A stretch of DNA of 38,278 nt from a virus. Every line of letters begins with the position of its first letter. Positions within the stretch are counted from its first letter, which is position 1. The notes below the pieces were generated by a model. That model saw nothing but the letters and a program-made list of their open reading frames with translations, was not told where the DNA came from and made no database searches. Below, piece after piece: positions 8,801-38,086 of the stretch. The stretch lies in IMG/VR virus record IMGVR_UViG_3300044953_000224, positions 1 to 38,278 of that record; one strand, 5' to 3'. Made by a program: the position numbers and the translations under genes.

Positions 8801-11800
8801 AGATTCCCCTTCAGCAAAAGAAGTTGCTAAAGCATATCTATCTGCCATTGCATTGTTCCATGCTTGTTTTGGATTTGGTCTTGTTCCAATCGTTCTTGCG
8901 TCAGAAACTAATTCTGCTAAAGCAATTCTAGTTAACGCTTGTCTATTTGCAATTTTTTCTTTTTTATCTATAGAAGTTGTTTGATCGTATAATTTTTTTT
9001 CATAACGTATTTGTTCTTTTAATGCTTCTTTTGTTTTTAAAGCATCTTCATAAGTCATTGGATAAGGCTCTGCAATATTTTTAAGAGAAATGCCAGCCTT
9101 ATTCATTGCTTGTGTTAATTGATTATATCCCTCTGGACCAAGCATTGTAAAACCAGATGTTTTTCTATAATTATATTTAGAACTGTTTTTATCACTATGA
9201 TATAACCTTTCATCAAGATTTGAGTTTGCATCGTCAAAATGCAATGCTACAGTTCTTGAAACTCCTTTTTTTGCTTTTATTGACTGCGTTATTAAATGTT
9301 TTAAATCCGGAAAATCGTCATCTGTTCCAAAACTTCTAACAACAAGTCCGCTTTTGTTTAAAGCAGCAGCATGAATAGGTTGGAACTTAGACCAGTCTAC
9401 TTTTGCTCCAGCCTCTAATCTTGCAATCATTGATTGATAAAGTGGCAACTCTTCTGGACTTAAATCCATAGTTTTTGTTGTTTTCTTTAATTTTGGAAGA
9501 ATTCTATTAATTTCTTTTTTAATTGCAATGTTATATTCATATGGAGACATTTTTGCTGCTGTTGAAGCAGTTGTCGTTGCAAAAAACTTTTTAGCCCCGC
9601 CTTTAACAGCAAGAAGATTAACCATTGCTTGCTCTTCCATAGAAGGCATTATTTTGGCATACTCAGTCTTAGGTCCAGACGCTCTATCAAATACACCCGC
9701 TGGTCCAACATCACTAACAACTCCTCCGCCAATATTTCCTGGACCTAAATCTTTATCTCCTCTTAACAAGGACGCAACCAATTGTTTTATTGTTTGATTT
9801 TTAGTAAATTTTTGAGGCATTTTAGAAATTTTTGCATCCATTTTAGATTCTAATGCAAAATATTGTCGATGACCAGTGGGGTCGCTTGGATCTTTAATTA
9901 AAATTAATTTTTGTTTTGGAGCAACTAACCCATGTACGTCTCTTGTAATTTGTGTTGCTCGCATTTCTGCCAATGCTGCTTTTTCACTAACCATAGGCTT
10001 AACAAATACCCTAGTGCCGTCTGGTTTTTCATATATTCCACCAACAGAAGAACTTGGAAAACTATGTCCAGATGAAGGGCTAATTCTTTTACCAGGATCT
10101 GTTAATGGAATCTTTTTTGCTCTTGGTGATTTATATGTTTGTGTTGAAATATCGTCAAGTTGTTTTTGTTTTGTTTGTCTTTCTGCTGCTACCTTTGCGT
10201 TTTTACTAGGCATACCCAAAAATTGTTTTTGAACTCTTGCAAACATTTTTGGTGTGCCAATTAATCTTTTTACATAACCGCCTTGATTTAACTGTTCTAA
10301 TAAACCTTTATTTTGTTGTGTTGCTTCTTTATTAACTATAAATTCTCCGGGAGTAAGTACCGCTGGCACAGTATCTGTATTTCCTTTGCCTGGAACAAAT
10401 CCACCAGAACCTAGTTTTATTGGAGGAACTGGAGGTCTTCCTTTAACTACTGGCCTCATCATTCCTGGATTTGTTCTTGCAAATACTGCTGCTGCTGCAG
10501 AGGCTCTTTGATACGCTTGTGTTAATACAACAAGGGCATCTTTTTCCATCATAAACACTTGTTGTAATTTTGAATGTGCTTGATTTAAAGATGCTGCTAC
10601 AGTTGCTGCTTCAATCTGCTCTGATGTCATATAATTAGTTTGTAAACCAAGAATTTTTGATTGTCCACCAAGACCTATGTATCCTTTGCGGAGTAAAACA
10701 AATAGTTTAATAAGGTTTGCAATACCGTTTGCAATCAAACCAAATGTCATAAGTAAAACTGGACCAATAATGCCAACAACACCTATAAACTTTGCTATTC
10801 CACTCTTTACACCATCACTAAGATTATTAAAACCCTTTAATACTTTTCCAACAAACTCAGCAATTGGAGTTACTGCTTTTAAGAATTGTTCTCCAAGAGG
10901 AACTAAAGATACTTTTAAATCTTCTAATGTTTTTTTAAATTTTGTTCCAGTTGAGTCTTCTATTTTTTTTAATTCTCTTTCTGATAAAATTGCCAACTCT
11001 TCAACAGAAGCAGATGTTAGTTGTAAAGTTCTTGAAGCCTGTGTTCCATCTTTTGTTATGTTTTGAAATAGTGTAGAAAGTCTTGAAAATTGAAATTTAC
11101 CAAATAATTGTTCAATTGCTCTGGCTCTGTTTAATGGATCTAATGTGTCTAATGCTTGTGCAAACTGAAGAACAGTTGTTTTAATATCTCCTTTATTACT
11201 TTCAACAATTTGATCTATACTAATTCCAAGATCTTGTAAAAATTCTTTTGCTTTTTTAGTTGGATTAATTAATGCTGCCAAACCAGATTTAAGTGCGTTA
11301 GCACCTTCAGATGCATTAATGCCCCCCTCTTTCATAGCGGTCATAAAAAAGGCTAAATCTTCAATATTTCCACCAAGTTGTTTAACAACTGGAGCAGCCT
11401 TTGGAATTGCAATTGTTAAATCTTCAATGCTTAAAATTGTTTGGTTTTCAACTGCATTAAGAAAATTAATTTTTTTGTTAAGATCGTCTGCAGCAATACC
11501 AAATGCGTTTGTTAGCGATATTGTTGTTTCTAATGCTTGTTGTTGTTCAACCCCACCAAGAACTGCTAGTCTCGTTGCCTCTGCAACCTGCGCTGTAAGA
11601 TCAGCGCCCATCTTACCAGTTGCTGCTGCATCTGCTGCCATCTCCATTGTTTTTTCAACAGCAATGCCATATTTGGTAAATTCTTTTGCTAATAACTCAA
11701 TATTTTTTAATGCTTTATCTGTTTCGTCAGCAGTTGTAAACACTTCTCCATAAACACGTTTAAACCTAATTGCTTGTTTTTCTAAAGCCATAAATGATTT

Positions 11801-25377: not shown

Positions 25378-27408
25378 TTAATTATTGGGAATCATACACA
25401 CGTCTGTAGTACAATAAGCCTCTCCTTCTGCTTCTAAATTTTTTACCCCGTCATAAATTGCTGACCAATCAATCTTAGCAATTTTACCAACGTAGTCATC
25501 ATATTCTTGTTGAGTAATTTGTTGATATGGCTGTTGAGGATAAACTGTATTTCCCATCGGAAGGAATGATACAGCCTTTAACTGACCCTCATACATGTGC
25601 AGTGCTGGAGCAATATGCTTTGTCTCTAACTCCTTGTCAAACGACAGTGTTACAGAAACACCATTATCAGACCAATATTTTTGAGTTGTTGCTGCAAGAC
25701 CAATCTTTTCAAACAAAGTTACATCTTTTTCTGACCTTGAATGTCCTGAATGAACTGGAAAATAAACAACAACAGTATTATCAGAAACTAAATCATCTTC
25801 CATTTTATACCCTGCTGCTTTAAATAAATGTAACATTGGATCTTGATCACTGAACCTAATTGCACGAAGGAAATATTCTCCACCCACTGGCCAGTGAACT
25901 CCTGGAGAAGCACCAGAAAGTAGTGAAACAGAACCAGATGGCTTGACTGTAGTTACCCTAATTGATTCACGAACACACAACCATTCTGAATATTGTTTAT
26001 CGTATTTACGAATTGTTTGATATCCTTCATCCATCCAATCACGAGTTGCTGGAAGTCCATGAGTATCGGCAAATGATGCAATACCAGTAAGTGACGTACC
26101 AATACGGCGATTACGTTGCATAATTCCATTTGTAATTTGCCAGTGTGTAGGAACAAGCGTTACTGTTTTACCATATAGGTAGGCAAACTTTAATGTACGT
26201 AAAAAATCTTCTTTGCTTTCATGTCGATTAAGATGAACCTCTACAAGAGTACAAAGTTCATATGACTCTAGTGGTTGCTCTGCACAAGGATTAAAACCCA
26301 TTACACGATAATCTTTTCCATCCGCTGAATCAGCAAGGCGTCCATAATTTCTAGCAACATCCAACCAAATAAATCCTGGCTCACCATTATTAGAAATAAG
26401 ATCAACATAATCTTCATACTTTGTTCCAACTGTAGCAGAAATAGAGTTATTACTCATCCATGCCCAGCCCGGATTTTCTGAATCAAATGAATTTCTTTCT
26501 GGAAATACTTCTGAATTTTTTAAATTAATAAAATCATTATCTCCTGCAGCACCCAATGCTAGTGTTGCAGAGCGTCTAACATTTCCAGAAACAACACATG
26601 TACCAATTAAATTTACGATGTCAACAATAGCCCTTGCATCAAGGTTCTCTCCGACTCTAGAACTGATTACTTTACGAAGCCTATTGTGAAGGTCAATTAG
26701 AGGCTGTGGACCGCTTGAAACGCCTCCAAAGCCCTTAATTGGTGCTCCTGCGGGACGTATCAAGCAATAATCAAACTCTTGAATATTTTGATTTGGTCTA
26801 AGCATAGAATTAAGAAGTATTCTTGTTGCCTCTACCCATCCTTCACGAGTATCTGGAATTTGATAAATTACAACAGGTTCGGTTGGTGCATAGATTGGCA
26901 TTTCTTTGTCTTGTCCAACAGTATCAAAGCCTACTCCAACACCAAGCATTAACGCATCCATAACCCAAGCAAATAAAGCACCTGGATCATTTCTATCAAT
27001 ATCACGAGTTGATACCATCGCACAATTTTGAAGAGCAGCAGAGTTGCGTTTTTTCATGGTCATTGGAGTTCCGAATGCCCACAGACCTCTTCCTGGTGGA
27101 GTCCACTTAAGATTAAACATACGATCAAACGCTTCTTGTGCTGACTTCTGTGCTTTATAGTCATTCCAAGGCAGTCTGTTTTCCTTTGCGTGATTCTTTT
27201 GTACAGAATACATACCCTCGATTACTCTTTTGCAAACCTCATGCCATCTTTCCTTAGTTCCGTCCTCCTTAACACGAGAGTAAGTACGTATAAAAGTAAT
27301 CTCTCCTAGTGAGTTAAGTCCAGCATCTTTAAAGCCAAAAGGTGGCTCTATTTCTGCATATTTTGTAACAAAATCATCGGAAAAGCGAAAAGAAAAAACA
27401 TCTGACAT
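25378..27408 (-). CDS. nrdJ: Adenosylcobalamin-dependent ribonucleotide reductase (class II, RTPR type)
   Basis: The protein has 676 residues; the start is the ATG after AGGAG. It reduces ribonucleotides to deoxyribonucleotides with a cobalamin-generated thiyl radical. By comparison with Lactobacillus leichmannii RTPR the key residues are present. Cys129 in QNCAM and Cys386 in YELCT are the reducible pair, and Cys375 in FNPCAEQPLESYELC carries the thiyl radical. Asn373 and Glu377 are the active-site partners, and Cys666/Cys671 (CTTDVC) are the C-terminal shuttle cysteines with the same four-residue spacing. It therefore looks active and complete. It gives the phage its own dNTP supply but sits oddly among late genes, with its own promoter. 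Confidence 0.95.
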   Translation of the reverse strand: MSDVFSFRFSDDFVTKYAEIEPPFGFKDAGLNSLGEITFIRTYSRVKEDGTKERWHEVCKRVIEGMYSVQKNHAKENRLPWNDYKAQKSAQEAFDRMFNLKWTPPGRGLWAFGTPMTMKKRNSAALQNCAMVSTRDIDRNDPGALFAWVMDALMLGVGVGFDTVGQDKEMPIYAPTEPVVIYQIPDTREGWVEATRILLNSMLRPNQNIQEFDYCLIRPAGAPIKGFGGVSSGPQPLIDLHNRLRKVISSRVGENLDARAIVDIVNLIGTCVVSGNVRRSATLALGAAGDNDFINLKNSEVFPERNSFDSENPGWAWMSNNSISATVGTKYEDYVDLISNNGEPGFIWLDVARNYGRLADSADGKDYRVMGFNPCAEQPLESYELCTLVEVHLNRHESKEDFLRTLKFAYLYGKTVTLVPTHWQITNGIMQRNRRIGTSLTGIASFADTHGLPATRDWMDEGYQTIRKYDKQYSEWLCVRESIRVTTVKPSGSVSLLSGASPGVHWPVGGEYFLRAIRFSDQDPMLHLFKAAGYKMEDDLVSDNTVVVYFPVHSGHSRSEKDVTLFEKIGLAATTQKYWSDNGVSVTLSFDKELETKHIAPALHMYEGQLKAVSFLPMGNTVYPQQPYQQITQQEYDDYVGKIAKIDWSAIYDGVKNLEAEGEAYCTTDVCMIPNN

Positions 27409-27515: not shown

Positions 27516-28094
27516 TTAAACCTTATTCCAAAATCCAGGACTTAAATACTTAGTTCCAGATATTATTGGAAGCGATTCATGAAAGTATGGTTCTACTGAA
27601 GGAAAGGCAACTAGACTATTTTTTTCAGGTTTAATTTTTATGTTTTGTTTTTTAAAAAATAACTCACCGCCTTCGTAGTTATCATTTAAATATAAAACTA
27701 TAGAAAGCATTGCTGACGTATCTCCATTATATGAATCTGTGTGAGATCCCATACTATTTCCTTTAAAATATTTGCTAATTGATAGCGGAGCAAGCCTGCC
27801 TAAATCAACTCCATACCTTAAAGAATATTCTTTTGAACAAGATCTTATTGCAAAGTCTAACATTTTTACAATTTTGTGAGATAAAAGTGTTTCATTTAAA
27901 AATTCATATGCAGAAACAAATTTTTGACTACCAAAAACTGTTAAGTTGTCACTTGAATTCCATGGCTTCCATTTTTTAATTATGCTACTATCATCATCTA
28001 AATCGTCTTTTTCAACCAAATCAACAAAATCAATATCTTCATCAAAAATATTTTTATAATATACAATTTTTGGATAGATCTCATCAATTATCAT
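27516..28094 (-). CDS. 2-oxoglutarate/Fe(II) oxygenase, copy 8
   Basis: The protein has 192 residues. It has the double-stranded beta-helix core of a prolyl-4-hydroxylase-like dioxygenase. Iron ligands are His118 and Asp120 (SHTDS) and His172 (YFHES). Lys182 in SGTKY is the likely 2-oxoglutarate anchor in place of the usual Arg. The family signature YLNDNYEGGELFF lies between them. The N-terminal YPKIVYYKNIF resembles the start of copy 4. It is the last oxygenase before the reductase gene, and its start overlaps the small upstream frame. The substrate is unknown. Confidence 0.85.
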   Translation of the reverse strand: MIIDEIYPKIVYYKNIFDEDIDFVDLVEKDDLDDDSSIIKKWKPWNSSDNLTVFGSQKFVSAYEFLNETLLSHKIVKMLDFAIRSCSKEYSLRYGVDLGRLAPLSISKYFKGNSMGSHTDSYNGDTSAMLSIVLYLNDNYEGGELFFKKQNIKIKPEKNSLVAFPSVEPYFHESLPIISGTKYLSPGFWNKV

Positions 28095-28200
28095 TTTCCC
28101 ACAACTCTCTTTGCTCTTCTTGTTCCTTAGAGTATTCTTTCATTTTTAGAAAAAACATCTAAAAATTCTATAACATCATCTTTATAGACAATACTATCAT
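28084..28200 (-). pseudogene. Small frame split by a one-base shift in an A run
   Basis: An ATG at 28200 overlaps the stop of the upstream oxygenase (ATGA) and opens 25 codons ending SKNERIL at 28123. A second frame starts at 28143 (MKEYSKEQEEQRELWENDN) and ends at 28084, overlapping the next gene. If the five A at the junction were four, the two would join into one 39-residue charged protein. That protein would fit the gap exactly and carry the usual overlaps at both ends. It may be a recent frameshift, a sequencing/assembly error, or a slippage site. I do not recognise the product. Confidence 0.45.
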
Positions 28201-28952
28201 GCATATTTATTTCCTTTAAGCCATTCTTGTTTTTGTTTTGCTTGTTCTTCCCTAACTATTTTTTCTTCTTCTGCCCATCTATCAAGAGTCTCTTGGGTAT
28301 ACTCTACATCTGCATAGTCCCAAAATGAAACCATGGTGTACCTAGTTCCATCTGTTATTTCACTTACTCCATGAATATTTTCTACTCCGCCAGGAAAAAC
28401 ATAATAAGAGTAAGCGTTTGGCTTAAAAGATAGATATGGCTTCATCTCATTGTCTTTATCACAAAAATATAACTCTCCTCCATCATAATTATCATTTAAA
28501 TATAAAATACCAACATACTTATTTATTTCAAATGCATTTGGATTTCCTTGATGATCAGAATTATCTGAGTGTGGTGCAGCAAAACCACCTATGTCCCATT
28601 TTTGTGCATGAGATGTATTTGCCTTTACTTTTCTTCCAAAAACCTTTTCTATTGCTTCTTGATATTTATCCTTTAAGTCTGTAAAAAAGTTATCTGAAAG
28701 ACCAAAAGATCTCATTGTATTTGCATCTGTCATTATGCCCTTGCCAGAAGATCCATAAAATGCAATATCTCCCCATTCAACATTACAATTTTCAAAAAAA
28801 TTAATCATTTTAGGAACAATATCTGGTGATATAAAATTTGGAATCTCAACAATTTTATTTGTTGTTACTCCAAGCCTAGTTTCTTTTATTTCTGAGTTTT
28901 GATAATAAACAAATTTAGACTCATCTATTGTATCAATAATTGCATTGTCCAT
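28197..28952 (-). CDS. 2-oxoglutarate/Fe(II) oxygenase, copy 7
   Basis: The protein has 251 residues from the ATG at 28952. A TTG/GTG extension to 28970 is rejected because it runs through the -10 box and the ATG is 6 nt after TATAAT. Iron ligands are His128 and Asp130 (PHSDNSD) and His194 (NIHGV). Arg204 in DGTRY binds 2-oxoglutarate. YLNDNYDGGELYF is the family signature. N-terminal residues 25-60 (VEIPNFISPDIVPKMINFF) match the lid helix region of prolyl-4-hydroxylase-like enzymes. The C-terminal 40 residues are a charged helix. All catalytic residues are present. Confidence 0.88.
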   Translation of the reverse strand: MDNAIIDTIDESKFVYYQNSEIKETRLGVTTNKIVEIPNFISPDIVPKMINFFENCNVEWGDIAFYGSSGKGIMTDANTMRSFGLSDNFFTDLKDKYQEAIEKVFGRKVKANTSHAQKWDIGGFAAPHSDNSDHQGNPNAFEINKYVGILYLNDNYDGGELYFCDKDNEMKPYLSFKPNAYSYYVFPGGVENIHGVSEITDGTRYTMVSFWDYADVEYTQETLDRWAEEEKIVREEQAKQKQEWLKGNKYA

Positions 28953-28958
28953 ACTTAT

Positions 28959-28964
28959 ATTATA
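28959..28964 (-). promoter_or_regulatory. Leaderless -10 box before oxygenase copy 7
   Basis: Minus-strand TATAAT, then 6 nt (ATAAGT) and the ATG at 28952. It lacks the exact TGn extension and a good -35, but the spacing equals that of the other leaderless starts in this window. Confidence 0.45.
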
Positions 28965-28970
28965 CACCAA

Positions 28971-29543
28971 TTAACATGGGACTTTAATTTTTTCTCTTAT
29001 TGCACTTGGAAAACTATACCTAACATTTGTTTTTACTGGATTAACACCATGCTCACAGTGATCTTCTGCACTATGAATAATAAGGTCGCCAGCCTTTGGC
29101 TTATATATAATGTTTTGTTTAGTATAAAATATTTCTCCGCCTTCATAGTCATCATTAATATAAACTACCAAGCCATAAACATTGTTGTCTACTAAAGTAA
29201 AACAATCATCTTTTTTTACTAGTTTACTTAACTCCCTGGTTTGTAAAAAGTCATGGTTATCTGAATGTACTCCATGTCCTTGTCCTGGCATTAATCTTGT
29301 AATACTAGAGTGCTCATGTAAATATAACTGATTTGGCAATAGTGCTTTAATTCTTTGAGAAATCACCATAGCCTCTTTTAAAGTTGGAGTAGATTGATTT
29401 TGAGGATATATTCCATTCCATAATTTTTCACCAGATACTCTTATTTTATTTAATATTAATTGAATTTCATTTTGATGTAAAAAATTATTATGTAACCATA
29501 TGTCATTTCCAATAGTGAAAAAATTTGAATTATTGCTAAACAT
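28971..29543 (-). CDS. 2-oxoglutarate/Fe(II) oxygenase, copy 6
   Basis: The protein has 190 residues and begins one base after the TAA of copy 5, with TAAGG in the end of that gene as ribosome-binding site. Iron ligands are His93 and Asp95 (GVHSDNHD) and His165 (CEHGV). Arg175 in VRYSF is the co-substrate anchor. The core contains YINDDYEGGEIFY and YKPKAGDLIIHS. It is closest in layout to copy 5 (same His93/Asp95 numbering, shared IHSA and EHGV segments), so the two look like a tandem duplication. The substrate is not evident. Confidence 0.88.
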   Translation of the reverse strand: MFSNNSNFFTIGNDIWLHNNFLHQNEIQLILNKIRVSGEKLWNGIYPQNQSTPTLKEAMVISQRIKALLPNQLYLHEHSSITRLMPGQGHGVHSDNHDFLQTRELSKLVKKDDCFTLVDNNVYGLVVYINDDYEGGEIFYTKQNIIYKPKAGDLIIHSAEDHCEHGVNPVKTNVRYSFPSAIREKIKVPC

Positions 29544-29544
29544 T

Positions 29545-30225
29545 TTATGCCTTATATTTTGTTAATTCTGGCATAATAACAGATTTTTCATTTTTAAATA
29601 ATGGCTCAAGCCAAATATTTATATTTTTTTGTCTTTTTTTATTTTCTTCGGTTCCATAATTATAAAATGATCCTGGATTTTTTTCTGGCTTTAAGGAAAA
29701 ATTAGAAAATGTATACCTAAGACCATTTTTTACTGGTCTAACACCATGTTCATGCGATTTTAATGCACTATGAATAACCAAGTCTCCTGGCTGTACTGGA
29801 ACTTCAATTCCTTGGTTTGGATAGTATATTTCACCACCAGCAAAATCTCCAAAGTAAACACATGCTCCCCATGACAGAACGCAGCATGTAGCCCAAACAT
29901 CTGGAACTGTAAGTTCTTCAGTCATTTCTTCTCCAGGGCTGTCGCAGTGTGGCAGCATCTGCTTTCCTTCTCCAAAATATAGCATACTTGCCATTGGATG
30001 AATAACGTATTCTGGTGCAAGAAATTCTGATATTTTATTCCAAACTGGAACTAATTCTGGAATTGCTGGAGTTACCTTAAACTCAATTTCATCGAACCAA
30101 TGATTTCCAAGATCTAAATTTTTTGCTATAGAGTTTATTAAATCAACTTCTTCTTTTGATATAAAATTTTTATACCAAAAAATTCCATCATCTAATTTAA
30201 TAATGTTTGGACTGTCTTGAAACAT
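29545..30225 (-). CDS. 2-oxoglutarate/Fe(II) oxygenase, copy 5
   Basis: The protein has 226 residues. Iron ligands are His93 and Asp95 (LPHCDSPG) and His160 (SHEHGV). Arg170 in LRYTF is the 2-oxoglutarate anchor. The usual YLND signature is altered to VYFGDFAGGEIYYP, the most divergent in the group. Residues 1-60 are an N-terminal lid; the C-terminal 50 are basic and then hydrophobic. Its ATG is 6 nt from a TGATATAAT box whose TGA is also the stop codon of the CDGSH gene, so the mRNA is probably leaderless. Confidence 0.86.
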   Translation of the reverse strand: MFQDSPNIIKLDDGIFWYKNFISKEEVDLINSIAKNLDLGNHWFDEIEFKVTPAIPELVPVWNKISEFLAPEYVIHPMASMLYFGEGKQMLPHCDSPGEEMTEELTVPDVWATCCVLSWGACVYFGDFAGGEIYYPNQGIEVPVQPGDLVIHSALKSHEHGVRPVKNGLRYTFSNFSLKPEKNPGSFYNYGTEENKKRQKNINIWLEPLFKNEKSVIMPELTKYKA

Positions 30226-30231
30226 ATTACT

Positions 30232-30240
30232 ATTATATCA
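30232..30240 (-). promoter_or_regulatory. Leaderless promoter of oxygenase copies 5 and 6
   Basis: Perfect TGATATAAT on the minus strand, followed by AGTAAT and the ATG at 30225. The first three bases double as the stop of the upstream CDGSH gene. Confidence 0.65.
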
Positions 30241-30354
30241 TTCTTTATCTTTTTTATCTGACTCTATACTATCAGAATCTTTTTTTACATTATGCGTTCC
30301 ATCACAATATGGATATCTTAGCGATCTTCCACAAATACACTGCTTAAGACCCAT
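30238..30354 (-). CDS. Minimal CDGSH iron-sulfur protein (38 aa)
   Basis: The motif CICGRSLRYPYCDGTH matches the CDGSH consensus C-x-C-x2-S-x3-P-x-C-D-G-T-H exactly. Three Cys and one His would bind a 2Fe-2S cluster, as in mitoNEET-type proteins. I place the start at the ATG at 30354. AGAAGG lies 7 nt upstream and the overlap with the oxygenase before it is then only 11 bp; the longer frame from 30453 would overlap by 110 bp. The product is MGLKQ, the motif, then a charged Lys/Asp/Ser tail. It is much smaller than cellular members. Between oxygenase genes it could be an electron carrier or redox sensor for them, but that is inference. Confidence 0.8.
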   Translation of the reverse strand: MGLKQCICGRSLRYPYCDGTHNVKKDSDSIESDKKDKE

Positions 30355-31135
30355 AAGGGTACCTTCTATTCTCTTTAATTCTTTGTCTTTCCATTTCTGC
30401 CCAGACATCTTTTCCATATTTTTTTTCATTAGAAAGCCATTCTGGCGATCCACTATATGGTATCTGATAAAAACATCTTACCAAATACTTATCTTTTTTC
30501 TTAACTCTTTTAACACCGTGTAAGTACATACCTTCATCTGATAAAACATCTGGATGACCTGACGGAAAGACTAATACATCTCCAGCCTTTGGTTTATAAG
30601 TAATGCGATCATTTTTAATTATAAAATCAATCTCTCCACCATCATAGTCATCATTTAAATACATTGTACATGTTATTGCAAATTTATTTCCAGGCATATC
30701 AGATTCTATCTTTACAAAATCAGTATGATGCACCATAACATGTTCATTTGATCTGGGGTTATTATCATAAAAGTATCTTGAATATGATGGCCCCATCATA
30801 ATCCAATTATCTCCTTTTACTACATTATGCTCTTGTAAAAAATGATTTGTTGATATATTAAAAGCATCTAAAATAATTTTTGCATATTTATATTCGTTAT
30901 AAAACTTTTCATCTTTTTCTGAATCTAAACTGTTAGAAAGAATATTTTCTAATGTTGGAGTTTGACCTAAATAAGTTCCAAATCTAGACCATGGAAGCCA
31001 GTCAAGAAATACCTTGCTGCTTTTAGGATTTTCTTCTGAATATTTAAGCATTTGAACCAAAATCTCTGGATTTGGTATTAAATCTTTATATAAATAAATT
31101 TTAGGATATAAAACTTCATATTTAATTTGAGGCAT
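30344..31135 (-). CDS. 2-oxoglutarate/Fe(II) oxygenase, copy 4
   Basis: The protein has 263 residues, overlaps the end of copy 3 by 14 bp, and has TAGGAA before the ATG. Iron ligands are His137 and Asp139 (VHHTDF) and His206 (YLHGV). The co-substrate anchor is Lys216 in DKYLVR, or less likely Arg220. The signature is YLNDDYDGGEIDF with YKPKAGDVLVFPSGHPD. The N-terminal YPKIYLYKDLIPNPEILVQM resembles copy 8. The insertion between the strand and His206 and the long basic C-terminus set it apart. Its last codons contain the ribosome-binding site of the CDGSH gene. Confidence 0.86.
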   Translation of the reverse strand: MPQIKYEVLYPKIYLYKDLIPNPEILVQMLKYSEENPKSSKVFLDWLPWSRFGTYLGQTPTLENILSNSLDSEKDEKFYNEYKYAKIILDAFNISTNHFLQEHNVVKGDNWIMMGPSYSRYFYDNNPRSNEHVMVHHTDFVKIESDMPGNKFAITCTMYLNDDYDGGEIDFIIKNDRITYKPKAGDVLVFPSGHPDVLSDEGMYLHGVKRVKKKDKYLVRCFYQIPYSGSPEWLSNEKKYGKDVWAEMERQRIKENRRYPYGS

Positions 31136-31799
31136 CTTTATTCCTATGAGACCTTATAGTCCAAAAAAATGGACATGTATATCTTATTCCGCTTTCTATT
31201 TTTGATACACCATGTATGTAATTTAAATCTCCTGGGAAAAAATAGGCTGCTCCAGCCTTTGGTTTAAAACTAATATTTTGTTTTGGAAAGAATAACTCTC
31301 CTCCAGCATAATCGTCATTTAAATAAAATAAACTTGCAAGGTCGTAGTATGGAAAATCATTTGGCTTTCCAGCATTATCACCATCGTGCAACTCTTTATC
31401 TGCATGAGGATTTTGAAACTGTCCAGGTAGCCACCTAACAATTGCTGGATTGGTAGCCCATGCGTCTACCTCAAAAAAATCATCAACAATTAATTTTAAT
31501 CTTTCAACCATTTTTTGAATCATTGGGAAGATAGTTGGGTCTTGTTTGTTTATAACAATACTAGTTGCTACACGATCTTTCCAATATTCTGAATCATATA
31601 TAACCGTTCCATCTTCATTATATCTTGTTTCAGTATAATCCCATTTTTTGATATTTTTTGCAAAATTTGAAATTTTATACAACTCTTCTTCTGTCATAAA
31701 GTTTTCAAGTTCAACGATTTTGTCTGAAGAAGATCCAAAAAATCCAGATGGTGTTATTGAAAATCTATCGCCTGCATGTATATTTGTTGGAATTTTCAT
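31122..31799 (-). CDS. 2-oxoglutarate/Fe(II) oxygenase, copy 3
   Basis: The protein has 225 residues. Iron ligands are His132 and Asp134 (NPHADKE) and His196 (YIHGV). Arg206 in SGIRY binds 2-oxoglutarate. The signature is FYLNDDYAGGELFFPKQN with FKPKAGAAYFFPG. Residues 28-50 (IVELENFMTEEELYKISNF) are the N-terminal lid typical of prolyl-4-hydroxylase-like enzymes. RWLPGQFQNPHAD leads into the metal site. The ATG is 6 nt after a TGATATAAT promoter with no Shine-Dalgarno, so it should be read from a leaderless mRNA that continues into copy 4 and the CDGSH gene. Confidence 0.88.
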   Translation of the reverse strand: MKIPTNIHAGDRFSITPSGFFGSSSDKIVELENFMTEEELYKISNFAKNIKKWDYTETRYNEDGTVIYDSEYWKDRVATSIVINKQDPTIFPMIQKMVERLKLIVDDFFEVDAWATNPAIVRWLPGQFQNPHADKELHDGDNAGKPNDFPYYDLASLFYLNDDYAGGELFFPKQNISFKPKAGAAYFFPGDLNYIHGVSKIESGIRYTCPFFWTIRSHRNKDASN

Positions 31800-31805
31800 A
31801 ATATA

Positions 31806-31814
31806 ATTATATCA
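31806..31814 (-). promoter_or_regulatory. Leaderless promoter of oxygenase copies 3 and 4
   Basis: Perfect TGATATAAT on the minus strand, then TATATT (6 nt) and the ATG at 31799. It lies in the 19-bp gap after the DUF6065-like gene. Confidence 0.65.
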
Positions 31815-31818
31815 CAAA

Positions 31819-32553
31819 TCAAGAGTATTTTCTCATTTCCCATACTTCTGACCTGTAGACTCCTCCGTTTGGCTTTCTATATTTTGCACTATTTTTTTGA
31901 TTTCTTTTCATCATCTCTATAAAACTAAATGTTACAACTTCACTTTCCCAACTTTCTCTCTTAAATGGAACTATCTGAGTAAATGGCGTTCCTTTTGGAA
32001 TAATTCCAGTAAAGTCTTTTGATATAAAAAATGGCATACTGCCAGGTAGATCAATTTTATCGTTATCAATAATTCCAGAAACTGTTAGAAATGGCAACTC
32101 AAATCTATTAAATGGATGACTATATAAAGCACTATATCCTTCTGGAAGACTAATGCCCCAATCTGGAAACCAGGCAAAATGCTCATCACGATATCCAGTA
32201 GGAGTTATAAAATCTTCCATAGGCGCTCTTGAAGTACAAAAGTCTTTATATTTTTTATCTTCAGTTTTAACAGATATCTTATTCTTATCATCAATAAAAA
32301 ACTCTAAATCACATGGCGTTACATATGTATAACCAGTGCCCATGATATCAAAAACTGCTGGACAAGCCTTCCAAGTTGGAATCTTTCCTTTATCTGGACC
32401 AATAAAAAAACTGTTGGTTCCTGGAATTTTTGCAAAACGATCCATTTTTCTATACCACTCTGGTATTGTTTTTAATATAGGCTTTGGCTTAAACTCTGAA
32501 TTTTCATTTAACCAGTTTCTATTTGCAACAAATTTTATTTTTTTAATTTCCAT
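31819..32553 (-). CDS. DUF6065-like / cyanophage-type hypothetical protein
   Basis: The protein has 244 residues. The start overlaps the upstream gene by 11 bp. Recognisable blocks are KPKPILKTIPEWYRKMDRF, PTWKACPAVFDIMGTGYTYV, HPFNRFELPFLTVSGIID and IIPKGTPFTQIVPFKRE. I recall this set from conserved hypothetical proteins of cyanophages and other aquatic phages. The last block parallels ITIPANTPAIAIIPISI in the adjacent DUF6065 protein, so the two are probably remote paralogues. No catalytic triad is obvious. It has repeatedly been seen by annotators near 2-oxoglutarate oxygenases or glycan genes, but I cannot verify this here. Confidence 0.65.
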   Translation of the reverse strand: MEIKKIKFVANRNWLNENSEFKPKPILKTIPEWYRKMDRFAKIPGTNSFFIGPDKGKIPTWKACPAVFDIMGTGYTYVTPCDLEFFIDDKNKISVKTEDKKYKDFCTSRAPMEDFITPTGYRDEHFAWFPDWGISLPEGYSALYSHPFNRFELPFLTVSGIIDNDKIDLPGSMPFFISKDFTGIIPKGTPFTQIVPFKRESWESEVVTFSFIEMMKRNQKNSAKYRKPNGGVYRSEVWEMRKYS

Positions 32554-33259
32554 TTTTTCTCTTATCGGTTGTCTTTAGTTTAAAGGCTTTTATTTCGTGT
32601 TTTCCTATTTTTGTATTTTTCTCATCTGTTGCATTTCTATAAAAATGTGTCCACTCTCCACGTTGATTTAATTCTTGAGAAACCTCTCCATAACTTTTAT
32701 TTTTTTGCTTTTGTTCTTCAGTTATAAACAAATCATATATTTCAATTTCTGTATTATTAATTTCAGAAATAGATATTGGGATTATTGCGATTGCTGGAGT
32801 GTTTGCTGGAATAGTTATAACAGATTTAGGCTTAATTACTTTTAATGCTGCAGGAATCATATGTGAATAAAAAGAAGTACTTATTAGCGTTGTATAAGGA
32901 ATTACTCCGTCAAGAAATAGGTTTGGAACTGGCATAGTTAGCACTGTAATATTTTCATCAGTAATAAATTTAACATTAGTATTTAAACTTAGTGTTGCAC
33001 TTCTTCTATTTTCATTTACATATTTATGTCCACTTAAAATTGTTATATGTCCTTCTTCTCTATCCGTGTCTATACCGTCCCAAATAAACACTATGTTTTC
33101 TGGAAAACTAATACCCCATCCTAATCCATTTGCTAAAGAAACTGGAAAGCAATGATATGCATGAGCATTTGTTACATCGTCCATCCAGGATCTTTTGATT
33201 GAAAGTGGTTCAAGTTTTACATTAGATCCTTGAACTATTTCTGCTCTTATCTTATTCAT
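32543..33259 (-). CDS. DUF6065 family protein
   Basis: The protein has 238 residues, and the ATG overlaps the previous stop (TAATG). The segment KRSWMDDVTNAHAYHCFPVS followed by LANGLGWGISFPENIVFIWD matches my memory of the DUF6065 core (RPWMD, AYRCLPLTIAN, GW). Later PNLFLDGVIPY and IPANTPAIAIIPIS complete the fold. The function of the family is unknown. It has no membrane segment. It sits between two pairs of oxygenases and next to a distant relative, so the pair may act on the same substrate as the oxygenases or bind it. The C-terminal 50 residues are highly charged. Confidence 0.7.
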   Translation of the reverse strand: MNKIRAEIVQGSNVKLEPLSIKRSWMDDVTNAHAYHCFPVSLANGLGWGISFPENIVFIWDGIDTDREEGHITILSGHKYVNENRRSATLSLNTNVKFITDENITVLTMPVPNLFLDGVIPYTTLISTSFYSHMIPAALKVIKPKSVITIPANTPAIAIIPISISEINNTEIEIYDLFITEEQKQKNKSYGEVSQELNQRGEWTHFYRNATDEKNTKIGKHEIKAFKLKTTDKRKNGN

Positions 33260-33918
33260 TAATCATTTGTTTCTTGATAAAATGCCGGATTGTGAAACTT
33301 AGAACTATAATCTAACATAGTAACAATTGAATATTTAGTTCCAGAAGTTACTGGCATTGCTCTATGTGGATACATATAGTTTGATGGAAATATATACAAA
33401 TCACCTGCTTTTGGCTTAATGTTTAAATCTTGTAGCCTAAAGGATAACTCTCCACCTTCATAATCGTCATTAGGATATGCTACTAAAGAAACTACACAGT
33501 TATAAGAAAATCCGTGATCATGATGTTCTTGAAAATGCTGTCCTGGACCATATTTGACAAAATTAAATGCCTCCCAATATTTTAACTCTCCTCCTATATA
33601 GAACTGTCTAGAATAATCTTGTACTGCTGGTAACTTTGCATTATAGACATCTTCCCATAGTTCTGTTAAAGTCTTAGCAGTATTACCTGTATCTTTACCT
33701 ATATCTGTTTTTTTATACTTAAAATCTACACAATCTCTATACTCTGGCATTTTTTGTGCATATCCAACAAGTGCTTCTCTCCAAACATATGACTTATTAT
33801 CCGTATTTTTTAATGCATTTTCTAGTCTATCAATCACATCTATACCTGTTAACACATTTCTGTAAACAACAATTCCTGATCCAAAATCTTTTTTTTCTGT
33901 CCATGTTTGGTCTATCAT
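33259..33918 (-). CDS. 2-oxoglutarate/Fe(II) oxygenase, copy 2
   Basis: The protein has 219 residues, overlaps copy 1 by 4 bp (ATGA), and has AAAGGA before the ATG. Iron ligands are His132 and Asp134 (EHHDHG) and His185 (YPHRA). Lys195 in SGTKY is the likely 2-oxoglutarate anchor. The signature is AYPNDDYEGGELSF with IKPKAGDLYIFPSNYMYPH. It resembles copy 1 throughout, including CxDFKY, EAFNFVKY and IFPSNYxYxH, so the two are tandem paralogues that have diverged greatly. All metal ligands are intact. Confidence 0.88.
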   Translation of the reverse strand: MIDQTWTEKKDFGSGIVVYRNVLTGIDVIDRLENALKNTDNKSYVWREALVGYAQKMPEYRDCVDFKYKKTDIGKDTGNTAKTLTELWEDVYNAKLPAVQDYSRQFYIGGELKYWEAFNFVKYGPGQHFQEHHDHGFSYNCVVSLVAYPNDDYEGGELSFRLQDLNIKPKAGDLYIFPSNYMYPHRAMPVTSGTKYSIVTMLDYSSKFHNPAFYQETND

Positions 33919-34649
33919 AAATAATCCTTTCTAGTCATGACTTTATGAGCATTATCGTTTAAATCCATCATAGCAACTACGCAATACTTAGTTCCACTAA
34001 TCATATCTAAGGAAGCGTGTTCATAGATATAATTAGATGGAAAAATAGCAATGTCCCCAGCCTTTGGCTTGTATGTTAATTTATCTAATCGTGGAAAATA
34101 GATTTCTCCACCTTCGTAATTATCATTAAGATATATAACAGCAGAAACCGTTGCACTATAAGCAGGTCCATGATCAGCATGAATCCTAAACTGTTGGCCA
34201 GCACCCTCATACTTTACAAAATTAAATACCTCATAATATGTTACGTTAATGCCCCAATAATAAGCATAATCGTCTATACAAGATTTTAAAACATTGTAAA
34301 TCTCTTTGTACATATCAATTAATTCAGAATTTTCAATATTTCTTGGTCCAAGAATTTTATCATTATACTTAAAGTCAGAGCAATTTCTTGCATATTTTAT
34401 TGGCTTGTCTGAGTTTGTAACCTGTGCTTCATTCCATCTATACGATGTCTGTCCATTTAAATTATTCTCTAAAATATTTAAATATTTATTACAACTTTCT
34501 TTAGAAATTGCATTATGGTAAATATTTAGACCAAGACCTGGGTTACTAACTTTAATATTATTAAAAAATTTATCTGGCATTCGTGTTGATGCAGATTCTG
34601 ATCTATCTTTAGTAAACCAAATATTCTGGGAATCATCTATTTCAATCAT
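33915..34649 (-). CDS. 2-oxoglutarate/Fe(II) oxygenase, copy 1
   Basis: The protein has 244 residues and is the first gene of the cassette, with AAAGGAG before the ATG and its own promoter. Iron ligands are His157 and Asp159 (RIHADHG) and His211 (YEHAS). Lys221 in SGTKY replaces the usual Arg. The signature is YLNDNYEGGEIYFPRLD with YKPKAGDIAIFPSNYIYEH. Residues 40-65 (GLNIYHNAISKESCNKYLNI) are the N-terminal lid. It lies directly downstream of the FN3-FFPP-Hint protein, whose proline-rich tract is a conceivable hydroxylation target. That link is speculative. Confidence 0.88.
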   Translation of the reverse strand: MIEIDDSQNIWFTKDRSESASTRMPDKFFNNIKVSNPGLGLNIYHNAISKESCNKYLNILENNLNGQTSYRWNEAQVTNSDKPIKYARNCSDFKYNDKILGPRNIENSELIDMYKEIYNVLKSCIDDYAYYWGINVTYYEVFNFVKYEGAGQQFRIHADHGPAYSATVSAVIYLNDNYEGGEIYFPRLDKLTYKPKAGDIAIFPSNYIYEHASLDMISGTKYCVVAMMDLNDNAHKVMTRKDYL

Positions 34650-34701: not shown

Positions 34702-35979
34702 TTATTCAGTAATTGGATCTTCAGTAATTGGATCTCTTGCATCAAATACAAGCATATTTTCTGTAAAGAAGTTGTCATATGGTTCACAGTTAATGCTATA
34801 AACTGTTTCATCATAATCTACAACATCTAGGTATTCAATATTAATAAATCCCAACTCTTCATATGAGAAAACCATATATGTATCATCAATGGCATCAACT
34901 CTAGTAAATCTTGAGATACCATCTTTTTTAGTCAATATATAGTGTGTTGCAGAATAAGCATCTCCATTAACTACATATAACTTGTCTACTGTTCTTGATG
35001 TAACAGAAACCACTGTCGTTTCTTTTAAGTTTGTTTCATTTAACATTAAGTTTTCTGCTGACCAGTTTAACCAATCATTTTGTTCAATTATAGATGGATC
35101 TGCTGGAATCTCCATCGCAAGAATCACATCTCCAACAACTATATCCTTTGCATCTTTTCTGCCTTGGACAGTTTTAATTCCAGTATTACCTGATACTGAA
35201 TATTCATACTCGAATAGTGGGAAGAAAGGTGGGAAGAATGGGAAGAATGGTGGGAAGAAAGGTGGAAAGAATGGAGGGAAGAAGGGTGGAAAGAAGGGTG
35301 GAAAGAATGGGAAGAATGGTGGGAAAAATGGCGCCAGTGTTGTAATAACATCAGTCGTTGCTCCTATAGATGATCCATTTGCATTCTTTGCAACAATAGT
35401 ATATGACTGAGATGTATTTGCAGTATCACTAATTGTAGTTGATGTTGCAGAACCAGAAAGACCTAGAGATGATGTTCCATCAGAACCGTTTACATCATGG
35501 GAAGATAGCGCTTTACCACCATTTGCACCCAATGTCCAACTAATAGTATTTTGATTAATTCCAGCGGTTGCGCTTGGACTTTGTGGTGATTGTGGAACTG
35601 TTGTTGCTGTAACTGAAGTGGATGTCGTTCCACTTGCTGTACCAATTGCATTCTTTGCTTTTACTGTAAATGTATACGATGTATTTGATGCAAGTCCCTG
35701 AAAAGTATAAGAAGTTGAAGAAGATCCTGTATTATGAGTATATGTAGATGGTGTTGTAGAAATTTCATAAGAAGTTGCTGCTGGAGATGTTGCTGGAAGT
35801 GCCCAAGATAAATTTACTGCTCCACCAGTTCCTGATGCAGAAGCAGCGGAGGTAGTATTTGCAGTAGCAAGATAAGGACGATTAGTTCCTACATCTGTAG
35901 CAGTTAAAGAAGTAACATTTAATGGTTCTAAAAAGTTATCTTGCGCTGAAGACTTGATTCCTCTGCGTTTAATTGCCAT
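34702..35979 (-). CDS. FN3 - Phe/Pro tract - Hint domain protein
   Basis: The protein has 425 residues, and the gene has AAAAGGAG before the ATG. Residues about 43-126 form a fibronectin type III domain (VNLSWALPA, SYTFTVKAKNAIGTAS) and about 127-215 a second one (NTISWTLGANGG, SYTIVAKNANGS). Residues 217-255 are almost only Phe and Pro in FFPP steps. Residues about 258-413 read as a Hint domain: SVSGNTGIKTVQGRKDAKDI then VVGD (block A, Ser261 where inteins have Cys1), SATHYILTKKDG with His346 (block B), and YSINCEPYDNFFTENMLVFD (C-terminal blocks, FD instead of HN). It ends with a doubled DPITE. It is probably a virion surface protein that self-cleaves or once did. Confidence 0.75.
   Translation of the reverse strand: MAIKRRGIKSSAQDNFLEPLNVTSLTATDVGTNRPYLATANTTSAASASGTGGAVNLSWALPATSPAATSYEISTTPSTYTHNTGSSSTSYTFQGLASNTSYTFTVKAKNAIGTASGTTSTSVTATTVPQSPQSPSATAGINQNTISWTLGANGGKALSSHDVNGSDGTSSLGLSGSATSTTISDTANTSQSYTIVAKNANGSSIGATTDVITTLAPFFPPFFPFFPPFFPPFFPPFFPPFFPPFFPFFPPFFPLFEYEYSVSGNTGIKTVQGRKDAKDIVVGDVILAMEIPADPSIIEQNDWLNWSAENLMLNETNLKETTVVSVTSRTVDKLYVVNGDAYSATHYILTKKDGISRFTRVDAIDDTYMVFSYEELGFINIEYLDVVDYDETVYSINCEPYDNFFTENMLVFDARDPITEDPITE
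34741..35208 (-). other. Hint (intein/hedgehog-like) domain with altered ends
   Basis: Residues 258-413 of the FN3 protein. The first residue of block A is Ser261, block B keeps SxxH with His346, and the end has Phe412-Asp413 where splicing inteins carry His-Asn. N-S/N-O acyl shift chemistry at residue 261 would still be possible. Asn cyclisation would not. No homing-endonuclease insert is present. Confidence 0.65.
35215..35331 (-). repeat. Phe/Pro (FFPP) low-complexity repeat
   Basis: About 117 bases encode 39 residues of FFPP/FFP units. On the plus strand this is a purine-only-like tract of GGGAAGAA and GGTGGGAAG steps. It should be prone to slippage and length variation. Confidence 0.9.
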
Positions 35980-36019: not shown

Positions 36020-38086
36020 TTATGCTGACAAATCTCCCATTACGATCCAGGTATCTGTTGCTCTCTTGAAGAGAGTTGCAGATGAGTATTGAGCACGTAA
36101 TTTAAGACCTGGAGTTGCGTTTACAGTAACTCCTGCTGCTCCGGCAACTGTTACTTGACCAGCACCAGTTTGAAGAATATCAATTGATGTTCCTACTGGA
36201 TATGCTGTTGTTGAGTTTGCTGGAATTGTTAAAGTAATTGCTGATGCTGAACTGAATTCAATAAAATTATCTCTTAGTGATAGTCCACCAGTTGATAGAT
36301 TATATGATGCTGTTTGTTGACTAATTGTTGTTCTTGAAGGAACGCCTTCTTTTGTTTGAGTTCCGTCTGAAAACGCTACACCTGAAGCAGATGCTGTTAC
36401 AAGACCAGAGAATGTTGGATTGCTGATTACAGAAACTTGTCCACCTGTAACAGATATATTAGTTCCTGCTGTAATTGTTCCAGCACCAGAAAATTGTGTA
36501 AACTCAATATTGTCTGTTCCTAATGTTGTAACTACGTTAGTTTGTACCCAACCAGTTTTTTCGTTTGTGGTACCATATTCAACAAATATAAAGTCTCCTG
36601 CATCAACCTCACCAACGGTATCATAGTCTGTTGCACGAGTTGGTGCTCCTGATGCTGCAACAATATAAACACCATTTTGAGATTTTGTAGTTTGATTTTT
36701 AACAAGAATTCTATTTCCAGTTGCAAGAGTTACGCCATCAAGAGTATCTCCATTTTCAACATCAGTGGCAAGTGTAATATTGCTAGTTGTAGCAGCCTGT
36801 ACAGAAGCATGTACATTTAATCCAGCAGTTGCTGCATCAACATATTGTTTTGTTGCTGCACCAAGAGCGGTTTCTGGATCTGCAGCAAGAACTACTGCTC
36901 CAGTAAATGTTGCTCCTGAAAGACTTGCTTTTGCATCAAGATCTGTTGTAAGATTTGTAATATCTGATTGTGCATGAGTATGTGATGTTGATGCTTTTTC
37001 ATCAATTTGTGTTTGAATTGCAGACGTTACACCACCTACATAATTAAGTTCTGCTGTAGAAGCAGTTACTCCGTCAAGAATGTTAAGTTCTGCTGTAGAT
37101 GCAGTAACTCCATCAAGAATATTAAGTTCTGCTGCTGATGCTGTTACGTCTGTTGCACCTGCTTCAAGAAGATGTGTGTGAACTGTTGCTGCTTTACCAT
37201 CAAGTTGTGGCTGAATTTCAGAGGTAACTCCATTAACATATCCAATTTCTGTTGAAGACACATCTCCAATTGATGTTGTTGATGGAAGCACTACTGTTCC
37301 AGTAAATGTAGGAGAATTAGTTGGTGCCTTTGTGTCAATTTGTGTTTGAATTGCTGAAGTTACTCCGTTAACATAACCTAATTCTGTGTCTGAAACGTCT
37401 CCAATTGATGTTGTTGATGGAAGTACTACTGTTCCAGTAAGTACTACTGTTCCAGTAAATGTAGGAGAATTAGTTGGTGCCTTTGTGTCAATTTGTGATT
37501 GGATGGATGATGTAACTCCAGACAAATATCCAAGTTCTGTTGCAGAGGCGCCAGTAGCACTAAGGTTTCCAGTTGTAATAATTGTACCGCTTACATTTGG
37601 AATAGTAACTGTACGATCCGCAGTAGGATCTGTTACAGTAAGAGTTGTTTCATACGAATCTGCTGTTGAACCTTCAAACACAAATGAATTTGTAACAGCA
37701 ATTGTCGTGCTATCAATTGTAGTTGTTGTTCCTTGTACTGTTAAATTACCAGAAACTGTTACGTTACCGCTGTCGTCTGCAAGAACAACAGTACCACTTG
37801 AGTTTGGTAAAGTAATTGTGCGATCTGCAGTTGGGTCTGTTACTGTAAGAGTTGTTTCATGTGCATCTGAGGTTGATCCTTCAAAAGTAATGCTGGAGCC
37901 AAACGCTGGGTTTACTGTGGAGGATTGGTCAATAAAGTAATCAAGGTCTGCCCAGTGATTGATGCCATCACCAATCTTAAACTTATTAGTATCTGATTCC
38001 CATCCCATTTCACCTGCATTTAAAATAGGGTCTGCTGAAGTCCATTGGGCTGCAGTGCCTCTCCGTTGCTGCATTCTTGTTGCCAT
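36020..38086 (-). CDS. Repeat-rich tail fibre / receptor-binding protein
   Basis: The protein has 688 residues, with GTAGGAGG before the ATG. Residues 1-52 (MQQRRGTAAQWTSADPILNA then GEMGWESDTNKFKIGDG) are the N-terminal attachment domain found in many phage fibres. Repeats follow: TLTVTDPTADRTITLPNSSG (three variants in 70-165), ELGYLSGVTSSIQSQIDTKA and relatives (three to four), and TAELNILDGVTAS (three). Residues about 410-540 (KQYVDAATAGLNVHASVQAA, NGVYIVAASGAPTRATDYD) form a widespread fibre domain. The C-terminus is a small beta domain ending in RATDTWIVMGDLSA. It likely forms a trimeric fibre that touches the host. Confidence 0.85.
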   Translation of the reverse strand: MATRMQQRRGTAAQWTSADPILNAGEMGWESDTNKFKIGDGINHWADLDYFIDQSSTVNPAFGSSITFEGSTSDAHETTLTVTDPTADRTITLPNSSGTVVLADDSGNVTVSGNLTVQGTTTTIDSTTIAVTNSFVFEGSTADSYETTLTVTDPTADRTVTIPNVSGTIITTGNLSATGASATELGYLSGVTSSIQSQIDTKAPTNSPTFTGTVVLTGTVVLPSTTSIGDVSDTELGYVNGVTSAIQTQIDTKAPTNSPTFTGTVVLPSTTSIGDVSSTEIGYVNGVTSEIQPQLDGKAATVHTHLLEAGATDVTASAAELNILDGVTASTAELNILDGVTASTAELNYVGGVTSAIQTQIDEKASTSHTHAQSDITNLTTDLDAKASLSGATFTGAVVLAADPETALGAATKQYVDAATAGLNVHASVQAATTSNITLATDVENGDTLDGVTLATGNRILVKNQTTKSQNGVYIVAASGAPTRATDYDTVGEVDAGDFIFVEYGTTNEKTGWVQTNVVTTLGTDNIEFTQFSGAGTITAGTNISVTGGQVSVISNPTFSGLVTASASGVAFSDGTQTKEGVPSRTTISQQTASYNLSTGGLSLRDNFIEFSSASAITLTIPANSTTAYPVGTSIDILQTGAGQVTVAGAAGVTVNATPGLKLRAQYSSATLFKRATDTWIVMGDLSA
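37044..37160 (-). repeat. Three 39-bp tandem repeats in the fibre gene
   Basis: Units start at 37044, 37083 and 37122, exactly 39 bases apart, and encode TAELNILDGVTAS with few changes. They are collagen-free fibre shaft repeats that can change copy number in frame. Confidence 0.85.
37422..37457 (-). repeat. Perfect 18-bp tandem duplication in the fibre gene
   Basis: The 18 bases at 37422-37439 are repeated without change at 37440-37457, giving TGTVVL twice in a row. The other copies of this shaft repeat have it once, so this is a recent in-frame duplication. Confidence 0.9.

Follow-up and report, generated by a model that had tools for sequence, protein, structure and literature searches.

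The algal virus PBCV-1 encodes a prolyl 4-hydroxylase (P4H; vCPH) whose proposed targets are proline-rich proteins of the virus itself (Eriksson et al. 1999, as cited in PMC9301287), and T4-like cyanophages carry up to five 2-oxoglutarate (2OG)-Fe(II) oxygenases of the PF13640 type per genome, for which roles in 2OG signalling and DNA repair have been proposed (PMC3037559). Here we describe a locus of an uncultured aquatic phage, contained in the IMG/VR virus record IMGVR_UViG_3300044953_000224 (38,278 bases, GC content 0.34; this whole stretch is referred to as the window), in which an array of eight 2OG-Fe(II) oxygenases, a DUF6065 protein and a fibre-type protein with a Phe/Pro repeat, (FPPF)n, are encoded next to each other. 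On balance, we favour the reading that the array consists of prolyl hydroxylases which modify the phage's own fibre repeats.

As in PBCV-1, the phage encodes both a P4H-type enzyme and a proline-rich repeat protein, and the PBCV-1 structure (5c5t) was among the best matches to the model of one of the eight enzymes, ox7. The PBCV-1 prolyl hydroxylase is the nearest precedent, with the difference that it is the single such enzyme of an algal virus, whereas up to eleven enzymes are found in the tailed phages, beside FPPF repeats and with DUF6065. The top structural match of ox7 was an algal P4H acting on Ser-Pro repeats (3gze, E value 1e-10), whose substrate is likewise a repetitive proline-rich peptide, although that enzyme is single, acts on cell-wall proteins and shares 17% identity with ox7. 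With the T4-like cyanophages the locus has in common the multiple PF13640-type copies per genome; the two cyanophage regions that were read, however, showed no FPPF protein. Collagen-like phage fibres, too, are fibre-type proteins whose low-complexity repeat includes proline, but that repeat is Gly-X-Y; the FPPF protein contains no Gly-X-Y repeats, has Phe/Pro tetrads and triads (FPPF/FPF) instead and is thus not collagen-like. In the open-access literature we came across no description of phage FPPF repeats or of a connection between them and hydroxylase arrays, no literature on DUF6065, and nothing relevant on prolyl hydroxylases and phage fibres. We therefore count the link between FPPF repeats and hydroxylase arrays as new, while a viral P4H with proline-rich proteins (PBCV-1) and multiple cyanophage oxygenases were already known separately.

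The protein encoded immediately upstream of the first transcribed oxygenase contains PFFPPFFPFFPPFFPPFFPPFFPPFFPPFFPFFPPFFPLF, flanked by fn3 domains on one side and a Hint-like tail on the other, and this Phe/Pro repeat is coded by mixed synonymous codons (TTC/TTT, CCA/CCT/CCC). An initial annotation of this DNA had delimited the locus at 27516-34649, which encloses all eight enzymes but ends one gene short, leaving out this (FPPF)n protein (34702-35979), the likely substrate. At least 120 IMG/VR stretches matched a degenerate FPPFFPPFF pattern. The same pattern gave 27 stretches in 257 Gb of bacterial and archaeal genomes, mostly single chance matches, and the genuine FP-repeat proteins among them were located on viral-looking contigs, three out of four of which (L275, L282, L293) had oxygenases nearby, the fourth stopping directly after the repeat gene. 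PF13640 was present, mostly in 5-11 copies, in 32 of 33 FPPF-bearing records longer than 30 kb, which had been picked without regard to oxygenases. Because arrays of 5-11 copies are common in this uncultured phage group, the number of oxygenases alone is not exceptional, contrary to the initial view of eight as unusual.

The association is also directional. A same-strand oxygenase lay within 3 kb downstream of FP-rich open reading frames (ORFs) in 59/74 cases and within the same distance upstream in 1/51 (Fisher test, p = 4e-20); these counts cover the FPPF loci plus the window and the ORFs with 3 kb of sequence visible, and the p value should be taken as nominal, near-relatives being included. 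When the proteins were grouped by their non-repeat scaffold, downstream oxygenases were found in 44/47 cases for fn3 and 9/13 for a second scaffold, in addition to four singletons. Long FP-repeat proteins of up to approximately 1,100 amino acids (aa) had an adjacent oxygenase in 0/3 cases. Regarding the other flank, 17/101 FP-repeat genes directly followed an Mtd_N-like fibre gene, compared to around 1% of ORFs generally.

In the window, the genes of the module are transcribed from the minus strand, and several of them share overlaps of a few bases, in an operon-like manner. The oxygenases were named ox1-ox8 by coordinate, so that the copy transcribed first is ox8. In transcription order, the genes are as follows.

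36020..38086, minus strand: tail-fibre-type protein with an Mtd_N domain, 5' neighbour of the module (PF18454, 44.6 bits; PHROG tail fibre matches)
34702..35979, minus strand: fn3/(FPPF)n/Hint-like protein, candidate substrate (fn3, 35.9 bits; Intein_splicing weak)
35212..35331, minus strand: Phe/Pro repeat of this protein, PFFPPFFPFFPPFFPPFFPPFFPPFFPPFFPFFPPFFPLF (from the sequence; tandem repeat)
33915..34649, minus strand: ox8, 2OG-Fe(II) oxygenase, transcribed first of the array (PF13640; HxD..H; K at H+10)
33259..33918, minus strand: ox7, 2OG-Fe(II) oxygenase with a P4H-like model (PF13640; HxD..H; AlphaFold2)
32543..33259, minus strand: DUF6065 protein, predicted dUTPase-like beta-clip fold (PF19541, 84.1 bits against a cut-off of 26.6)
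31819..32553, minus strand: phrog_7084 protein, distant DUF6065 relative (PHROG; profile-profile comparison)
31122..31799, minus strand: ox6, 2OG-Fe(II) oxygenase (PF13640; sites intact)
30344..31135, minus strand: ox5, 2OG-Fe(II) oxygenase (PF13640; sites intact)
30238..30453, minus strand: CDGSH iron-sulphur miniprotein (PF09360, 32 bits against a cut-off of 29.5; motif CICGRSLRYPYCDGTH)
29545..30225, minus strand: ox4, 2OG-Fe(II) oxygenase with the lowest Pfam score, sites intact (PF13640 below cut-off, E value 2.7e-5)
28971..29543, minus strand: ox3, 2OG-Fe(II) oxygenase (PF13640; sites intact)
28197..28970, minus strand: ox2, 2OG-Fe(II) oxygenase (PF13640; sites intact)
27516..28094, minus strand: ox1, 2OG-Fe(II) oxygenase, last of the array (PF13640; sites intact)
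25378..27408, minus strand: class II (B12-dependent) ribonucleotide reductase (RNR), 3' boundary of the module, retained in array-less relatives

The RNR gene is followed by those for a 1200-aa protein, a 123-aa protein, the portal, the protease and the major capsid protein.

At the orthologous locus of related phages, repeat and array varied together. Among 43 records of the window's capsid family, FPPF occurred in 10, all of them with at least five oxygenases, and the 24 records without any detected PF13640 were without FPPF as well (24/24; Fisher test, p = 1.5e-7). Within the interval between Mtd_N and RNR, all 12 FPPF loci had ox8, ox7 and DUF6065, while neither the array nor DUF6065 was present in any of 12 loci whose repeats were of another type (GFTPF pentads, SPFAPF, PVYGF) or were lacking; the fn3 protein and phrog_7084 were still kept there. 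Where the locus had only ox8 and ox7, as in three close relatives, FPF triads with poly-Pro, or PPPF units, took the place of FPPF; two of these genomes carried a second module (L237, 6064-10284; L238, 4838-9060) composed of a PPPF-repeat fn3/Hint protein, DUF6065 and further oxygenases. Since this comparison had been found while looking, a second sample was drawn that was anchored on RNR and blind to repeat and array. Here, array and DUF6065 were present in 7/7 loci with FP repeats versus 0/39 with other or no detected repeats; loci too short for either feature were excluded, and because of an overlap of some contigs with the first sample the two are not fully independent. The seventh FP-repeat locus (L404) has its FPPF repeat at bases 6-124 of the contig, outside the automated scan, the output of which was 6/0/1/39. 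On a backbone tree of portal and protease, the combined state changed six times, repeat and array together each time, and four of these changes were forced by well-supported branches. For the second scaffold, relatives were too few (one locus) for a test of covariation.

The fn3 protein of array-less relatives contained other aromatic repeats, such as GFTPF, VFGFSPF, HYAGF and SFTPYSF (L333, L351, L364, L374, L378, L387 and others; L236, L244, L246, L248), so that a low-complexity tract rich in Phe/Tyr, of varying type, seems to be required at this fibre position.

With regard to the enzymes themselves, all eight ORFs were located where they had been annotated and matched PF13640 (2OG-FeII_Oxy_3), seven of them above the curated cut-off, within 7.1 kb. 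In their alignment, H118, D120 and H172, forming the HxD...H iron triad, were invariant in 8/8, and a basic 2OG anchor, K or R, was read at H+10 in 8/8, which is the P4H-type spacing; the Arg/Lys anchor proposed for every copy was thus confirmed. These residues were kept even in ox1, which shared 25-31% identity with the other copies. The dN/dS ratios ranged from 0.07 to 0.37 across all eight (measured against the close relatives L010 or L012), and the same eight copies recurred in the same order in a more distant relative, L031, with identities of 54% for ox8, 82% for ox4, 73% for ox2 and 40% for ox1. Intact sites, low dN/dS and conserved order in other contigs agree with the earlier impression that the copies are active. 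Low dN/dS and recurrence in L031 also indicate that the array is old and maintained copy by copy, and did not arise in a recent burst of tandem duplication. In the tree, the pairs lying closest together were ox8/ox7 (33915/33259; 1.64), ox5/ox1 (30344/27516; 2.89) and ox4/ox3 (29545/28971; 3.20), and these correspond to the groups described previously, namely copies 1-2, 4 and 8, and 5-6, if the copies are numbered in transcription order.

An AlphaFold2 model was obtained for one copy, ox7; it was confident (predicted local distance difference test, pLDDT, 91.5) and displayed a double-stranded beta-helix fold. Its nearest solved structures were the algal P4H with (Ser-Pro)5, the P. putida P4H with EF-Tu, Dictyostelium PHD, the PBCV-1 prolyl hydroxylase and PHD2, and comparison of the ox7 sequence profile with PDB gave bacterial P4H as the best matches, followed by LH3. 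The modelled fold of ox7 is therefore closest to prolyl 4-hydroxylases, and hydroxylation of peptidyl-proline is the predicted function of the array.

The DUF6065 protein accompanies the oxygenases closely. A same-strand oxygenase was found within 2 kb of DUF6065 genes in 77/78 cases, most of these loci having been drawn through FPPF, and in a set drawn by DUF6065 itself, oxygenases were present in 23/24 loci. As to the question raised initially, whether DUF6065 and CDGSH recur as neighbours, DUF6065 was a constant partner, so that the outcome named as refuting, a lack of recurrent association, did not occur for it; the CDGSH motif, in turn, was found in four lineages only (the window, L009/L010, L022, L030/L031), and CDGSH was rejected as a general partner. 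The model of DUF6065 (pLDDT 86.8) adopted a dUTPase-like beta-clip fold, the 50 PDB matches listed all being dUTPases (E values from 2e-4 to 3e-3). The dUTPase motifs were not recognisable when the conserved columns were inspected by eye, and a function as dUTPase was set aside, the likeness being in fold only. In Alphaproteobacteria, DUF6065 was fused to a Cupin_8/JmjC-type hydroxylase domain in two (L305, L310) of approximately 30 loci read, which lends weak, independent support to a role as hydroxylase partner; these proteins belong to the same Pfam family, but their flanks differ from the phage module, and in six bacterial DUF6065 loci whose flanks were examined, other, unrelated genes were found. 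In L309, DUF6065 was fused to a SapC domain.

The initial annotation counted two DUF6065-type proteins. The one at 32543-33259 scored over the cut-off, while that at 31819-32553 had no Pfam match, stayed below the PF19541 cut-off and corresponded to phrog_7084. Because the comparison of its family profile with the DUF6065 profile by hhalign linked both (97%, 7.6e-11), it is a homologous relative, and the designation holds for it at the superfamily level. By inspection, its GIIDxD and GTPxxQ stretches resembled dUTPase motifs 3 and 4. phrog_7084 proteins also occurred without oxygenases, and relatives are carried by haloviruses, with sequence hints of a dUTPase-like fold; the copy in HSTV-2 (L232, 5905-6774) adjoins thymidylate synthase. 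The presence of a CDGSH protein, also annotated previously, was corroborated by the Pfam match and by the motif CxCx2(S/T)x3PxCDG(S/A/T)H, found as CICGRSLRYPYCDGTH. As its annotated N-terminus overlaps ox5, the real start may be near the ATG at around 30354 (approximately 38 aa), and we can only guess at a role in iron supply or electron transfer.

The locus may then be seen as a phage-encoded modification cassette, in which a fibre-type Phe/Pro protein of the late operon is combined with an oxygenase array and its DUF6065 partner. The enzymes would draw on cellular Fe(II), O2 and 2-oxoglutarate, and prolines of the newly made fibre would be hydroxylated before assembly into the virion. The diverged enzymes might divide between them the positions or contexts offered by FPPF, FPF and PPPF units, and hydroxylation could stabilise the repeat, or alter its stickiness or receptor contacts. 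The wider proposal of a posttranslational modification system, in which up to eleven diverged prolyl hydroxylases together with DUF6065 would hydroxylate aromatic-proline (FPPF)n fibres in a position-specific pattern, is put forward tentatively.

Several observations speak against modification of the fibre repeats by the array. Adjacent oxygenases were missing from 15 of the 74 FPPF genes, and in a related large phage record (L239, 8721-13863) the stretch read contains a five-oxygenase array but no FP-repeat gene; this array likely acts on a different substrate. The number of Pro-Pro steps did not correlate with that of oxygenases (rho 0.03); for the FPF count, rho was 0.46, in an unplanned comparison that was not corrected for relatedness. 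The proposal does not explain why eight enzymes would be needed. Lastly, the four firmly supported independent switches give a sign test p of 0.125, and since four pairs cannot reach significance in such a test, and repeat and enzymes are adjacent, co-transfer as a block could account for part of the covariation.

Co-transfer is the core of the first alternative, according to which repeat and oxygenases are swapped as one block in a fibre region that is a hot spot of recombination, with no biochemical link between them, the enzymes serving some other purpose. The state does switch several times between close relatives, and the block changes while the flanking genes stay. Nevertheless, the array follows FP repeats on differing non-repeat scaffolds and in a strict direction, and reduced-array relatives have another repeat type yet the same fn3 and Hint-like parts; mere hitch-hiking thus appears unlikely to us. 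A second alternative retains the substrate but changes the chemistry, with Phe/Tyr of the repeat being hydroxylated or cross-linked, or hydroxyls anchoring sugars. 2OG enzymes are chemically versatile, and Phe (with Tyr and His) is as abundant in the repeats as Pro. Array-less relatives, however, retain Phe-rich repeats (GFTPF, VFGFSPF, HYAGF) and lose the Pro-Pro steps, the fold of ox7 is nearest to prolyl hydroxylases, and no glycosyltransferase was recognised in the module, which together render such chemistry improbable.

The enzymes could also be directed at the host, modifying its proteins (e.g., EF-Tu) or surface glycans, or tuning host 2-oxoglutarate as proposed for cyanophages, in which Sullivan et al. 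suggested 2OG draw-down and DNA repair as roles of the many oxygenases (PMC3037559). Among the near structural matches of ox7 is the P. putida P4H in complex with EF-Tu, but a host target would not explain that the presence of the array tracks the sequence of one phage protein, and we regard this alternative as very improbable. Of the substrates suggested initially, prolines of virion proteins are accordingly favoured, whereas nothing found points to lysine or to a host-surface glycan. Finally, an action on nucleotides or DNA by the oxygenases and the dUTPase-like DUF6065/phrog_7084 proteins beside RNR, for which the DUF6065 fold, the adjoining RNR, the phrog_7084 relative beside thymidylate synthase in HSTV-2 and the DNA repair link of cyanophage oxygenases (PMC3037559) could be invoked, is hardly credible given that RNR and phrog_7084 persist in relatives without any array, that ox7 is P4H-like in fold and that dUTPase motifs were not recognisable in DUF6065 by inspection.

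A tblastn search of 50,697 phage records with DUF6065, the FP/Hint protein and the second FPPF protein type yielded no match, BLAST masking low complexity, and therefore no isolate carrying the module was found. In the isolated cyanophage S-SCSM1 (L235, MK867354), which grows on Synechococcus WH7803, at least six 2OG oxygenases are interspersed with the tail-fibre genes, and three of them lie beside a 'short tail fibre' protein (2081-3346) with RQPRNFR/APFNFR repeats; this phage is a possible laboratory model. As for the window, its nearest isolate capsid and portal are those of Streptomyces phages, which suggests an actinobacterial host. It also encodes a 3195-aa protein (2840-12427), probably the tape measure judging by size and place, the gene of which contains a 228-base direct repeat in two copies (4660-5105).

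Since the locus ties the oxygenases to one defined candidate substrate, encoded by the phage and built on a simple repeat, their role becomes a testable question. If the proposal is true, phages make fibres with hydroxylated prolines, whereas this modification is known chiefly for collagen, the cell walls of plants and algae, and a chlorovirus; genes of this kind in phages would then belong to virion maturation and not to metabolism. Part of the 'cryptic' prolyl hydroxylase genes of aquatic viromes would be explained in this way, and phage virions would bear a hydroxyproline material that decides adhesion or host range.

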